Shown here: piece by piece, positions 45,467-49,458 of the stretch
Layout of the letters: each line of letters opens with the position of its first letter
Numbering within the stretch: position 1 is the stretch's first letter
The notes under the pieces: generated by a model
What the model was told of the DNA's origin: nothing
What the model saw: only the letters and a program-made list of their open reading frames with translations
Databases searched by the model: none
Position numbers and translations under genes: made by a program
Source: Clostridiaceae bacterium
GTDB taxonomy: Bacteria; Bacillota; Clostridia; Lachnospirales; Lachnospiraceae
Reading direction: 5' to 3'
Assembly: GCA_902362865.1 (NCBI GenBank)
Contig: CABIYE010000001.1
Location: forward strand, 417,318-481,317
DNA: 64,000 bases

Positions 45467-46753
45467 TTAAAATACAATCGTTACCGTGAACCATCCATTT
45501 TCAGCAGTAAAATGATAAAAGACGTCATGCTTTTTGCAGAAAGCCAGGATTGACCGGGTACCAATTCCGTGACCTTCCTTTTCTGATATGGGAAGTCCGT
45601 TTTTGGAGAAAGCGACGGTTCCGGTATAGGGGTTGGACACCTCCAACATGAGCTTTGGCCTGTGTATGCATTTGCAGATAATTTTTCTTTCTTCTTCAGG
45701 AAGCTTACGGCAGGCGGTGATGGCATTTTCCAGCGCATTGGCAAAAACGATGGAAAGCTCTGCGGCATCGACAGGGAGTGTGTCCGGAATGGAAAAATGT
45801 GTTTCCAGCGTGATATTCTCTGCCGCTGCCCGTTCCAGATAGGAAGACAGTGTGGCGTTCAGTATGGGGCTGCTGCAATAAAGTGCAGGAGCCTGAAGCT
45901 TATACTGCGAAATGGAATGATTGATATAATTGAGAACGGTCTGCGGTTCTTCATTTTCTACAAGGGAAGCGATGGCCTGAAGTCTGTGGCGGGTATCATG
46001 CAGGTCTATTCTTGCTTTTTCGGTTGCAGCAGATGCCTCGGAGATTCTTTCTTCCAGGCTGTGTACCTGTAATTCTAATAATTCCCGATTATGATTTGAC
46101 ATTTGAAACCGGTACTGCATGAACAGGTATTGGAACACTGCAAAATAGATAATGACAATCACTGCTCCCAGCAGGTAGATTAAAAAAATAGCAGAAGGAC
46201 TATTTATGTAATGCGTCGGATAAGCGGCAATTACGACTACAAGTACAATCAGAGAGCATGGAATCAGAGAAAGGATGCCCCAGCCTTTTTGCGTGATAGC
46301 GGTAAGCTGTAAAAACGGGCGCCGTATAAAAGCAAATTCCAATAAAATAATGAGCAGGTAAGCCGTTAGACGGAGCAGGAAGTCGGAGAATGCCGAACCA
46401 TGGATTGCAGTATTTATCAGCGTGACGGTGGCGGTAACGTACAGGGAAAATAAAATCTGTGTCGCATGGGTAAATACAGCCAATGCGGGCTGTACTTTTG
46501 CAAGTTTGTAAATCATAAGGATAGCAGGAAGAGATATTGTAAATGCAAAAACCCGTGTAAGGAACAGAAAGCCCCGGAAATAAATGATGGCGGCAGTAGA
46601 AATCACAACATAAAAAAGATACAGAGACAGGATGGCAATAATTTTTCTGAGACTGTATTTGAGTTTTGTGGTAGAACACATCATGCCCAGTGTACATATT
46701 ACGGTTAAAGTGACCTTAAATACCATATAGGGTAAATTTTGTTCAAACAGCAT
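45467..46753 (-). CDS. GHKL-type sensor histidine kinase (AgrC-like)
   Basis: 428 aa. The N-terminal half has about six membrane helices with short loops, no large extracellular domain, then a coiled dimerisation helix with the phosphoacceptor region DLHDTRHRLQA (His252). The C-terminal ATP-binding domain keeps the N box (ANALENAI) and a GHGIGTRSI glycine motif. This is the AgrC/ComD-like class paired with LytTR regulators. The start at 46753 is eight bases after GGAGG, which is inside the end of the regulator gene; the start codon begins two bases past the regulator's stop. The signal is unknown; the neighbouring binding protein is a possible partner. Confidence 0.88.
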   Translation of the reverse strand: MLFEQNLPYMVFKVTLTVICTLGMMCSTTKLKYSLRKIIAILSLYLFYVVISTAAIIYFRGFLFLTRVFAFTISLPAILMIYKLAKVQPALAVFTHATQILFSLYVTATVTLINTAIHGSAFSDFLLRLTAYLLIILLEFAFIRRPFLQLTAITQKGWGILSLIPCSLIVLVVVIAAYPTHYINSPSAIFLIYLLGAVIVIIYFAVFQYLFMQYRFQMSNHNRELLELQVHSLEERISEASAATEKARIDLHDTRHRLQAIASLVENEEPQTVLNYINHSISQYKLQAPALYCSSPILNATLSSYLERAAAENITLETHFSIPDTLPVDAAELSIVFANALENAITACRKLPEEERKIICKCIHRPKLMLEVSNPYTGTVAFSKNGLPISEKEGHGIGTRSILAFCKKHDVFYHFTAENGWFTVTIVF

Positions 46754-46754
46754 G

Positions 46755-47489
46755 TTATTCGCCTCCATTCAGCCAGTAATCGGACCATTTTGTTTTGTAT
46801 GTTTCGTATTTCCCGCGGGGAATTGAAATTTTGTGATTCCCGTTGAGGATAAGCTCATGTCTTGTGATTTCTGTGACATGGCGCAGGTTTACGACAAAAG
46901 AGGAACCCACAAGAAGAAATTCTTTGTGTTCCAGCAGCGGGGCAACGGCATTTTGAAAGGTCCCGTTAAAGGTTGCGCTACTTATAACAGAATGGTCAAT
47001 GAGATGATAACAGATCAGCCGTCTGACACGTTCGGCGTAGCAGATGTTGTGTACTGGAATGATGCGGACGGAGCCGGGCAGTTTAATAGCAACAGCCTTC
47101 TTCTGAAGCTCGGCAAAACGGTCAGCAGCCTTGTCCAGGCATCGGAATAACGGGACAGCGTCTATTGGTTTCAAAAGATACTGAAACGCTTCCACAGTAT
47201 AGGAGTCTACGGCAAAGTCGGGAGAGGTGGTTAGATAGAGAATCATCCCTTCATCGCCTTGTTCTCGCAGCGCAGAACCCAGCCTTATACCGCTCATTTC
47301 CGGCATGAGAATATCCAGTATATAGAGATCAAATCCGCCGTGTTCAGCTTTAAAGTTCAAAAGTGCTTTTGCAGAAGAAAAAGCAGACACTGTAAAAGAG
47401 TAGTTCTGCCTTATTTTCTCATATTCCTGAATCAGATTCACAATTTTCTCACGATATCGTTTTTCATCATCACATACAGCAATCCGCAT
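46755..47489 (-). CDS. LytTR-family response regulator (AgrA-like)
   Basis: 244 aa. Receiver domain with the acidic pocket CDDEKR and phosphoacceptor Asp59 (YILDILMPEMSG), then a LytTR DNA-binding domain after about residue 135 (IRIIPVHNICYAERV-type strand, FLLVGSSFVVNLRHVTEI, ISIPRGKYETYK). Such regulators bind two direct repeats spaced two helical turns, exactly what is seen 26 bp upstream at 47514-47549. I start at ATG 47489; an ATG eight residues earlier has no ribosome binding site. It is the first gene of a two-gene operon with the kinase. Confidence 0.88.
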   Translation of the reverse strand: MRIAVCDDEKRYREKIVNLIQEYEKIRQNYSFTVSAFSSAKALLNFKAEHGGFDLYILDILMPEMSGIRLGSALREQGDEGMILYLTTSPDFAVDSYTVEAFQYLLKPIDAVPLFRCLDKAADRFAELQKKAVAIKLPGSVRIIPVHNICYAERVRRLICYHLIDHSVISSATFNGTFQNAVAPLLEHKEFLLVGSSFVVNLRHVTEITRHELILNGNHKISIPRGKYETYKTKWSDYWLNGGE

Positions 47490-47513
47490 TTTTCCATTCT
47501 TTTTTAAGAACAT

Positions 47514-47549
47514 TGCAAAATTTACAATAAAGGCTGCAAAATTTACAAT
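47514..47549. promoter_or_regulatory. 15-bp direct repeat spaced 21 bp, LytTR operator candidate
   Basis: TGCAAAATTTACAAT occurs at 47514-47528 and again, identical, at 47535-47549. A 21-bp period puts both copies on the same DNA face, as for AgrA/VirR-type LytTR sites. It lies in the divergent gap between the regulator gene and the DUF6485-like gene. Confidence 0.65.
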
Positions 47550-47553
47550 TTAG

Positions 47554-47582
47554 TTCAAAAAATTGGCTCCTTCCGATAAAAT
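47554..47582 (+). promoter_or_regulatory. Promoter candidate downstream of the LytTR repeat
   Basis: TTCAAA (47554-47559), 17-bp spacer, TAAAAT (47577-47582). The poor -35 box starts five bases after the direct repeat, the position where an activator would help polymerase. Confidence 0.4.
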
Positions 47583-47710
47583 TTAAGAAATCTATAAAAA
47601 TTATGCCAAAAGTATGTGTATGTGTCAAGTGTTTTTGTCGCTTCAAGTATGCAGGAAAGACAGAAGAAGTTGGCGTGATGCATACAAAAGCAGAAAAAGG
47701 AGGAAAAAAT

Positions 47711-47902
47711 ATGGAGAATTGTGACAACAACAGACCATGCCCATGTACCTATGACTGTCCGCGACATGGAAAATGTTGTGCTTGCGTAGCGCATCACCGG
47801 GATCATAATGAGGGGGTACCCGGGTGTTTCTTTTCTACGGAAGCAGAAGCTACATATGACAGGAGCATAGAGGCATTGTGTCGCGACAAAGGAATTCTAT
47901 AA
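47711..47902 (+). CDS. Small cysteine-rich protein, DUF6485-like
   Basis: 63 aa with nine cysteines and several histidines: CPCTYDCPRHGKCCACVAHH, then GCFFSTEAEATYDRSIEALCRDKG. The pattern matches what I recall as the DUF6485 family of short clostridial proteins; a zinc or iron-sulfur site is plausible but not shown. AAAGGAGG lies eight bases before the ATG at 47711. The binding-protein gene follows after 21 bp, so the two share a transcript. Confidence 0.8.
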   Translation: MENCDNNRPCPCTYDCPRHGKCCACVAHHRDHNEGVPGCFFSTEAEATYDRSIEALCRDKGIL

Positions 47903-47923: not shown

Positions 47924-49069
47924 ATGCAAAAATCAATTTCTGCGAGATTATCGCGAGTCTGTATTTTTACAGTGGTTTTTTTATTGCTTTTTTCGCTGGC
48001 TGGGTGCAGTGATAAAGTGGAACCGGCAGAGAATACGGCGAGTTCTCCGGTGGAAGGAAAGAAGATTGCGTATATACTGAACATGCCTTCCAGCGAGATA
48101 TTTCAGCTCTGTGCCGATCAAAGTGTAGAAACGGCGGAAAAATTAGGTATGTCCTGTGATGTGTTTTTTTCTGATGGCGATGACACCGTTTTCAAAAATG
48201 ATATCACAGAGTGTGCTGAAGATGGGTATGACGGATTGTTTCTGTCACACGGAGGACAGGAGTATTCCTATGAGTTTCTGACGGAATTGCTTGAAGATTA
48301 TCCGGAACTAAAAATTGTAACTTTTGATACGCAGTTTGAAGAATCCTCCGGTGAAACAAAGAAAATAGAAGGTGTTACCCAGTTTTTCCAGGATGATGCA
48401 GGGTTTGCCACAAGTTTACTGGATTATATCTGTGAAGAATTATATCCGGAGAAGGAAACGGTAAATGTATTGAAGGTATGGGTAGGACCGAATTATATTG
48501 CTGCTTTTGACAGGAGGGAAGAAGGCTATCAGGAATATGAAACGAGCGGCAGAATTCATACACTGGAAGTGATTGGACCGACAGACTACAGCGATGCTAC
48601 AGCTTCCATGTATGAGGTGATGCGTGCCACTTTGATGAAATACGACGAGGGGGAGATTGACGCTGTATGGGTTGCTTATGACGCCTACGCGCAGGGGTGC
48701 TACCAGGCATTAAAAGAACTGGGCAGAGATATTCCCCTTGTATCGGTAGATATCTGCAATGAGGATATCCGTTATATGTTAGAGGACAGCTCCCAATGGA
48801 AAGCTTGTGCCTGCACGGATTTTAAGGCGAATGGCGAACAGGGGATCAGGACTTTAGCGTTGGAATTAAACGGCGATTATGAAGACATTACAGATCCCGG
48901 GACGGGCGAGGCAACAGATTATTTTGAGATGCCTGCTTGTCTTATTACACAGGATATGCTGAAAAGCGATACGACAATTGAAAATATTTACGATGTTGCT
49001 CCCAAACAGTATGGAGCCGTAGAAAATTACATGACGAATGACTGGCTGAAGGAGTGCATTGGATATTAA
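47924..49069 (+). CDS. Orphan sugar-binding-type lipoprotein (type 1 periplasmic-binding fold)
   Basis: 381 aa. Signal peptide with lipobox LAGC, so it is anchored on the outer face of the membrane. The mature part starts KKIAYILNMPSSEIFQLCAD and alternates strand and helix as in type 1 (LacI/RbsB-like) binding proteins; the second lobe has VWVAYDAYAQGCYQALKELG. No permease or ATPase is nearby. Because it faces a GHKL/LytTR system across a LytTR-like operator, it may present a ligand to the kinase or be its regulatory target. Autoinducer-2 and sugar binding proteins share this fold; the ligand is unknown. Confidence 0.82.
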   Translation: MQKSISARLSRVCIFTVVFLLLFSLAGCSDKVEPAENTASSPVEGKKIAYILNMPSSEIFQLCADQSVETAEKLGMSCDVFFSDGDDTVFKNDITECAEDGYDGLFLSHGGQEYSYEFLTELLEDYPELKIVTFDTQFEESSGETKKIEGVTQFFQDDAGFATSLLDYICEELYPEKETVNVLKVWVGPNYIAAFDRREEGYQEYETSGRIHTLEVIGPTDYSDATASMYEVMRATLMKYDEGEIDAVWVAYDAYAQGCYQALKELGRDIPLVSVDICNEDIRYMLEDSSQWKACACTDFKANGEQGIRTLALELNGDYEDITDPGTGEATDYFEMPACLITQDMLKSDTTIENIYDVAPKQYGAVENYMTNDWLKECIGY

Positions 49070-49127: not shown

Positions 49128-49458
49128 ATTATCGAGCAAATGCTATGACAAGGAGGAGTACATAGGTATTCGGAAGCAAAGAGAGGAGATGGAAGGTGCG
49201 AATCTCCGTGACGGACTTATGGAAGTAGCCTTTGAGCAGTGAACCGAACGTGTCTGTTTGTGCCAAGGAGTACAGGATATTAGTAGACTTCAACGTATTC
49301 CCTACGTTACAGGGGAACTGTATCGAAGCAGAAGATCGGCGCACAGATGCCGGGCAGCAGGCTTCTGTACAGACAGAGTGCAGAGAGGTTCTCTGAATTT
49401 AGGTGGTAACACGGATGAAAAGATTCGCCCTAAGCTAAGAATAGCTTAGGGCTTTTTT
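49128..49458 (+). promoter_or_regulatory. T-box riboswitch controlling ilvBN, specifier probably GUA (Val)
   Basis: The leader contains the T-box antiterminator sequence AGGTGGTAACACGGA (49401-49415) and the final terminator GCCCTAAGCT / AGCTTAGGGC followed by T residues (49427-49458). In Stem I, CATAGGT pairs with ACTTATG, leaving a specifier loop GAAGTAG just before CCTTTGAGC. Aligned with the glyQS T-box, the codon is GTA. Uncharged tRNA-Val binding would favour read-through into acetolactate synthase. The specifier is my reading and the least certain part. Confidence 0.85.
49427..49458 (+). terminator. T-box-regulated terminator before ilvB
   Basis: Ten-base stem GCCCTAAGCT / AGCTTAGGGC with a six-base loop and TTTTTT. 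It competes with the antiterminator that includes the T-box sequence. Confidence 0.88.

Follow-up and report, generated by a model that had tools for sequence, protein, structure and literature searches.

The locus and the neighbouring regulator

The stretch of DNA analysed here (termed the window) is 64 kb in length. One of its intergenic gaps separates a two-component system on the minus strand from a probable operon on the plus strand, and contains a direct repeat of two boxes. The features of this region are as follows.

45467..46768, minus strand: GHKL sensor kinase (HATPase_c_5; PF14501, 49.2 bits against a cut-off of 22)
46755..47489, minus strand: response regulator of 244 aa, receiver plus LytTR domain, with a ComE-like model; its reading frame is also open to an ATG at 47513
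47514..47528, plus strand: box 1, LytTR-type direct repeat, with the 9-bp core GCAAAATTT at 47515-47523; kept in relatives
47535..47549, plus strand: box 2, the same letters as box 1 at a period of 21, with the 9-bp core GCAAAATTT at 47536-47544
47554..47559, plus strand: TTCAAA, the -35 of the initial annotation; no consensus at this position in relatives
47577..47582, plus strand: TAAAAT, -10 of the outward promoter; its distance is 27 nt from box 2 and 32 nt from the 9-bp core
47600..47628, minus strand: probable regulator promoter, TTGACA-17-CATAAT with TGn, facing the outward promoter
47711..47902, plus strand: 63-aa Cys-rich protein, weakly DUF6485-like, the first gene rightward of the repeats
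47924..49069, plus strand: substrate-binding lipoprotein (Peripla_BP_4), probable second gene of the operon
49136-49435, plus strand: T-box leader (RF00230, 110 bits against a gathering score of 93)

The name DUF6485 is a weak one: up to E 1 nothing in Pfam matches the 63-aa window protein, and the orthologue at locus L081 reaches 19.6 bits, below the DUF6485 cut-off of 24. No paper mentioning the term was found in the literature searched. The T-box leader stands directly behind the binding-protein gene and is followed by an acetolactate synthase-like gene (assigned by eye); the genes behind the leader read like a branched-chain amino acid gene cluster. No transporter genes follow the binding-protein gene in the window, unlike in genome G014 (see below).

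The regulator likely starts at the ATG at 47489 rather than at the upstream ATG at 47513; the former is preferred because the aligned relatives begin there. The sequence displays a receiver domain (PF00072, 55.5 bits, cut-off 30.2) and a LytTR domain (PF04397, 26.7 bits, cut-off 22.6), which places it in the LytTR family. The predicted structure combines a receiver with a C-terminal domain rich in strands (mean pLDDT 89.4, pTM 0.61), and chains of full-length ComE make up the five best Foldseek matches. Receiver domains took up the VIA-align list, which has no bearing on the LytTR half.

FhRhHRS is described as the most conserved LytTR motif in the part of the source drawn on here (PMC4227749); it is typical of LytTR proteins and is not part of the domain cut-off. 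According to the same text, R198, N201 and S202 of the AgrA motif FFRCHNS are on the DNA, and the H200A change impairs binding (PMC4227749). The window regulator has FLLVGSS at this place and thus does not display the motif. The same is seen in its relatives: among the 79 of 81 aligned regulators that are ungapped at the motif, none has the His, 75 have Gly, 3 have Arg at the third place and 76 have the last Ser. In the alignment with ComE, a His of ComE is opposite the Gly of the clade. No canonical F.R.H[RKN]S was found in the open frames of the loci up to L111 and from L185, and there is no in-genome canonical control.

The direct repeat, its promoters and its conservation

Boxes 1 and 2 are both the 15-mer TGCAAAATTTACAAT, 21 bp apart from start to start, as the initial annotation had described. 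This pair is the sole exact 15-mer direct repeat at a distance of 12-40 in the window. It is not expected by chance: among 20,000 dinucleotide shuffles of positions 47490-47710 a single one produced such a repeat, and none of 100 shuffles of the whole 64 kb did. The arrangement GCAAAATTT-12 nt-GCAAAATTT at 47515-47544 has the form of a LytTR operator, i.e. two direct repeats of 9-11 nt with a gap of 11-13 nt. A scan of the 64 kb with a model of the element gives a single site, the pair at 47514-47549. Neither an inverted repeat nor an Rfam family was found at the boxes.

The promoter-like pair previously noted on the plus strand, TTCAAA-17-TAAAAT at 47554-47582, is present (9 of 12 matches), with TTCAAA beginning five bases past the repeat. 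The best promoter-like site in the gap is, however, on the minus strand and is new relative to the initial annotation: TTGACA-17-CATAAT with TGn (11 of 12 matches), reading from 47628 down to 47600. It sits on the far side of the repeats, and because of this the boxes would be inside the 5′ leader of the regulator, about 44 nt downstream of the transcription start predicted from TTGACA-CATAAT. The starts predicted from the hexamers are near 47593 on the minus strand and near 47589 on the plus strand, only a few bases apart.

It had been suggested that one site just upstream of the regulator could control both directions. The plus side of this suggestion is supported; on the other side the site is in the leader of the regulator, downstream of its promoter and not upstream. 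Control in both directions is possible, and because the boxes appear to lie downstream of the regulator's own promoter, it would act on the regulator by occlusion. The boxes are downstream of the best regulator promoter in the window and in L001, L003, L006, L010, L017, L026 and L028, and upstream of it in L005, L007, L009, L011, L018 and L025 (the call is ambiguous in L002, and L019 gave none). Since the position varies, species may differ in how the regulator is affected: by occlusion in the arrangement of the window, possibly by activation where the boxes are upstream.

Eighty loci of the regulator family were taken from GTDB genomes, most of them assigned to Lachnospiraceae, Oscillospiraceae and other Clostridia, and 450 bp upstream of each regulator were scanned with a box-pair matrix (score threshold 17; 99.9% of shuffled sequences are below 13.7). 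A pair above 17 is present in 39 of the 80 loci, the matrix having been refined on these same loci. Sorted by regulator identity, the strong pairs are found in 13 of 31 loci at ≥50% and in 26 of 49 below 45%. The expectation that the repeats are conserved where the regulator is thus holds in part: 39 relatives have the pair, but no strong pair was found in the 450 bp beside 18 of the 31 close regulators (≥50% identity). Two of these 18 have a site elsewhere, before the kinase gene in the genome of L004 (L096) and before another kinase gene in that of L008 (L089). Several loci from rabbit-gut genomes with regulators of 51-54% identity (L013-L016, L020, L022-L025, L027, L030) show a GGGGYGAARACC-like leader just before the start; most are without a strong box pair, and some have decayed half-sites before a -35.

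A held-out test used a matrix built from 14 close elements, with which the 49 distant loci were scored against 200 shuffles each. Seventeen loci reached p ≤0.005 (about 0.5 expected); in the reverse orientation 5 of 49 did so. Period 21 gave the highest mean best score, 1.33, followed by period 19 with -1.94, and every other period between 15 and 30 stayed under -5. Because of relatedness among the loci, which include near-identical pairs (L034/L035, L051/L060), the effective number is smaller and these statistics overstate independence. The consensus of the box is roughly [TA][AG]C[CA]AA[AT]TT[TC][GA]C[AG][CA]A; the cores in the clade are GCAAAATTT or ACCAAATTC-like and do not correspond to the AgrA/VirR/LRS-type core ACCACTTA.

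The distance from the boxes to a -10 is also conserved. In 48 elements, -10-like hexamers (TA....T, at least 4 of 6) were recorded outward from the regulator at offsets 0-79. The hexamer starts 27 nt after box 2 in 25 elements, the window included, and 28 nt after it in 8; any other outward offset is shared by at most 5 elements, and in the opposite direction the maximum is 4. Offset 27 occurs in 11 of 14 loci in the group of the window and its close relatives, in 8 of 26 distant ones (plus 7 at 28) and in 6 of 8 sites from the genome search. The -10 is part of the model that yielded these last 8, which biases their offset; without them the count is 19 of 40. What the 25 elements share is the pair of boxes, an A-rich tract and a -10 of the extended kind (T 88%, G 80%); a -35 is not among the conserved features. 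TAAAAT of the window fits at 27, but CG replaces the TG of most elements. Pairwise identity in 16 of the 25 averages 72% in the boxes vs. 35% in the first 20 nt of the spacer; thus the distance from box to -10 is kept while the letters of the spacer are not. This is the fixed place just upstream of a promoter that would be expected of a LytTR operator at an activated gene. The weak -35 proposed earlier (TTCAAA) is ruled out as a component of the element, as there are only 0-4 of 6 matches at that place in the 48 elements and the position is unconserved.

Outward genes and sites away from the regulator

Pfam domains were assigned to 30 first or second outward open reading frames, which were called with a simple finder that may err. 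These encode MCP chemoreceptors (L002, L003, L010, L026), BspA-type LRR proteins (L005, L017), GHKL kinases (L001, L007, L028) and InlB-repeat, S-layer or GLUG proteins (L036, L045, L064, L071). Single cases are a GGDEF protein (L073), Imm6 (L044), an alanine racemase (L009) and a glyoxalase behind the 63-aa gene (L006). Ten have no Pfam match, and L019 gave one match below its cut-off. The regulator is constant and the outward gene changes. In L034 and L035 the first outward gene encodes an integrase-family recombinase, and the boxes of the two loci are nearly identical; phase switching or cargo exchange might be considered there.

A sequence-only model from 15 elements was run over 19 regulator-bearing genomes. 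A site at E <1e-6 is present in 16 of them (13 of these sites are training elements), and the other 3 have no site better than E 0.003 among the 150 candidates scored for each. More sites may exist, because 150 candidates per genome were scored.

Two sites outside the training set, L104 (G009, E 5e-5) and L105/L081 (G014, E 7e-5), precede operons that start with an orthologue of the 63-aa gene. The orthologues are 89% and 86% identical, respectively, to the window protein; a glyoxalase-like gene is next in both, and a binding protein (72%) is present in G014. The G014 site is on a different contig from the regulator, and in G009 some 13 kb of one contig lie between site and regulator. In L006/L084 (G006), a training element, the 63-aa gene is divergent from the regulator as in the window.

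Other non-training sites are found before a chemoreceptor (L102), before a Cache-HAMP protein, a 624-aa chemoreceptor-like open reading frame whose signalling part was recognized by eye (L103), before a GHKL kinase (L089), between a kinase-regulator unit and an acetyltransferase (L096), between a kinase gene and the gene of a 1403-aa InlB-repeat surface protein (L101), beside the regulator of G007 (L097) and before a LytTR paralogue (L099, E 0.004). The genome search gave a further site at G005:C86:4723 (E 1.6e-7). At L189 (G002:C7:38500-44500) the 1403-aa InlB-repeat gene is between the kinase and regulator genes, each with its own copy of the boxes, which would fit a joint insertion or duplication of operator and cargo.

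The association of the boxes with the regulator was compared at the 63-aa gene. A search of a family draw of 397 genomes with the 63-aa protein gave 9 genomes at E <1e-16 (65 at E 0.001, mostly partial); these 9 together with G006 and G009 form a set of 11. The 63-aa gene has boxes in all three genomes with a regulator of ≥56% identity (G006, score 25.0; G009, 29.8; G014, 30.8), and no pair above 8.4 was found anywhere in the locus in the eight genomes without a close regulator (Fisher p = 0.006, the three having been chosen for having the regulator and being also nearer relatives). The pair scoring 8.4 is in G031, where no close regulator was found: it precedes the 63-aa gene at period 21, is followed by TATATT at 28 nt, and could be a site that has diverged. 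A good site before the gene of a putative exported protein was seen at L180 (G356:C38:18438-18501) with TATAAT at 27, and no regulator was found in G356 at E 1e-30; possibly a different LytTR protein has the same specificity there. Weaker sites are present in G176, G275 and G404.

The binding protein was rejected as a constant partner of the site, as it is found in 1 of the 19 regulator genomes only. Of 29 new binding-protein loci, 16 of which are weaker relatives, the other 13 (L112-L124, from 64% to about 26-28% identity, 3.8-4.1 kb) were scanned, and none of the 13 has a box pair above 17.

The operon is longer elsewhere. In G014 it encodes the 63-aa protein, a glyoxalase-like protein, the binding protein, an ABC ATPase, a permease (BPD_transp_2), an SDF symporter and an amino-acid ABC fusion. 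In G031 it encodes the 63-aa protein, a binding protein (48%), an amino-acid ABC fusion, a xanthine/uracil-type permease and a 5′-nucleotidase. At L059 (regulator 40%) the boxes have an SDF symporter and the 63-aa protein on one side and the regulator, kinase and binding protein (52%) on the other, and at L042 a 5′-nucleotidase and a binding protein follow the kinase. The window retains only the 63-aa gene and the binding protein. Because of these accompanying genes the ligand is guessed, from gene context only, to be nucleotide-derived or a similar small compound, perhaps a nucleoside or purine. Single open reading frames of 926-1143 aa beside the DUF6485-like operon (L186, 6831-10259; L187, 2606-6037; L188, 3156-5936) fuse the binding, permease and ATPase parts of an amino-acid ABC transporter (Pfam on the L187 frame only).

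Proposed function and comparison with known systems

The element is conserved with its period, its orientation and its fixed distance to the -10, and it recurs before the same gene family unlinked from the regulator. These properties, including the unlinked sites in two genomes, support the earlier proposal of a LytTR-type operator driving the plus-strand operon. Positions 47514-47582 are probably an activator-dependent promoter that is bound by the neighbouring LytTR regulator and drives the DUF6485-like and lipoprotein genes, and the repeats are very probably the docking site of this regulator. The strongest support is the presence of unlinked sites before the 63-aa gene in two genomes, together with none or weak ones in the eight genomes without a close regulator. 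As judged from sequence comparison, this appears to be a genuine operator-promoter of known LytTR design, with a core and a reader specific to the clade.

In the proposed mechanism the GHKL kinase would phosphorylate the LytTR response regulator, two molecules of which would bind the two boxes on one face of the helix. The bound regulator would recruit RNA polymerase to the -10 at 47577, substituting for a proper -35, and the DUF6485-like gene and the substrate-binding lipoprotein gene would be switched on. Polymerase held there would cover the start of the facing regulator promoter (47628-47600), and therefore activation should lower transcription of the regulator.

Another LytTR protein of the cell might read the site instead, with the adjacency of the regulator due to shared ancestry of the region. 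The G356 site, where the regulator appears to be missing, and the similar boxes at regulators that are only about 40% identical would fit this. It is nevertheless unlikely, as the pair accompanies the regulator in the 39 loci with differing outward genes, and the DUF6485-like gene has the pair only where the regulator is close.

That the boxes serve autoregulation only, the regulator acting on its own leader DNA and the plus-strand promoter being unrelated, is quite improbable: the -10 at the fixed distance points away from the regulator, and the sites in G009, G014, G005, G008 and G011 are before other genes with no adjoining regulator, even though the boxes are in the regulator leader in the window and in the seven loci listed above. 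The leader position in the window would also permit the repeats to act as RNA, but this is very doubtful, since the unlinked sites are in no regulator leader, no Rfam family or inverted repeat is found, and a period of two helix turns with a fixed -10 distance fits DNA binding. That the repeat arose by chance in A/T-rich DNA (GC content of the gap, 30%) is scarcely credible in view of the shuffles and of the conservation and geometry in relatives.

The activator-dependent promoter bound by the neighbouring regulator may be part of a wider pattern, which is put forward tentatively: the clade would read a new core in the old LytTR frame because the Arg and His of FhRhHRS have been replaced, and the operator would serve as a standard outward slot for expression, with a cargo that is swapped from species to species. 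The cargo would include chemoreceptors, BspA-like and InlB-repeat surface proteins, a second kinase and the DUF6485-like/binding-protein uptake operon. If so, one small two-component system in gut Clostridia would decide which gene is expressed, be it for sensing, surface or uptake.

For gut Lachnospiraceae and Oscillospiraceae, which are largely uncultured, the analysis supplies a LytTR operator of precise geometry and a model of its sequence. It thereby offers a testable regulator for poorly known genes: those of the 63-aa Cys-rich protein, of large surface proteins and of binding proteins that have no transporter beside them. With the usual DNA-contact residues lost and the core changed, the clade is a direct test case for base choice by LytTR domains.

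No paper on this regulator clade or its regulon was found among the matches listed; most subscription journals are outside the literature searched. The VirR box of Clostridium perfringens has the core CCAGTTNTNCAC, unlike that of the window, and VirR retains the Arg and the His of FhRhHRS, both of which are absent from the window regulator. The likeness is in the design: in the portions of these reports used here, VirR boxes are two imperfect direct repeats, each of about 12 bp and with 7-8 nt between them, that directly precede the promoter, and VirR has few direct targets per genome and a membrane kinase as partner (PMC2838878, PMC2688746, PMC4877802); the place of the boxes just upstream of the promoter is fixed (PMC2838878).

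LytTR sites are described in general as two repeats of 9-11 nt, 11-13 nt apart, that have no consensus in common (PMC4847170). YpdA/YpdB of Escherichia coli, from the same source, is a nutrient-sensing LytTR pair with a single direct target (PMC4847170); on this account it resembles the window system, and differs in its core and in the type of its target gene.

LRS promoters, e.g. those of hdrRM and brsRM of Streptococcus mutans, have the order 9-bp repeat, 10 bp, -35, 13 bp, TGT, TATAAT, in the section of the paper relied upon (PMC6193735). As in the window, two 9-bp direct repeats in the same orientation are 12 bp apart, the site adjoins the regulator gene, and there are 32 nt from the 9-bp repeat to the -10 (PMC6193735). 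The LRS core is, however, ACCACTTA-type (PMC6193735), whereas that of the window and its clade is GCAAAATTT/CCAAATT. In addition, as far as that section describes them, the LRS partner is a membrane inhibitor protein and the site drives the regulator operon; the window partner is a GHKL kinase (PF14501), so that the system is not of the LRS type, and its site points away from the regulator.

AgrA at agr P2/P3 of Staphylococcus aureus is likewise a LytTR regulator with two direct repeats between divergent promoters that have poor elements (PMC4227749). It differs, on the evidence of the same partial text, in its motif (FFRCHNS vs. FLLVGSS in the window), its core and its context, which is quorum sensing (PMC4227749). 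That a changed reader and a changed core go together is suggestive and is not proof. A core that differs from the LRS repeats, in a regulator clade without the Arg and His of FhRhHRS, appears to be new.
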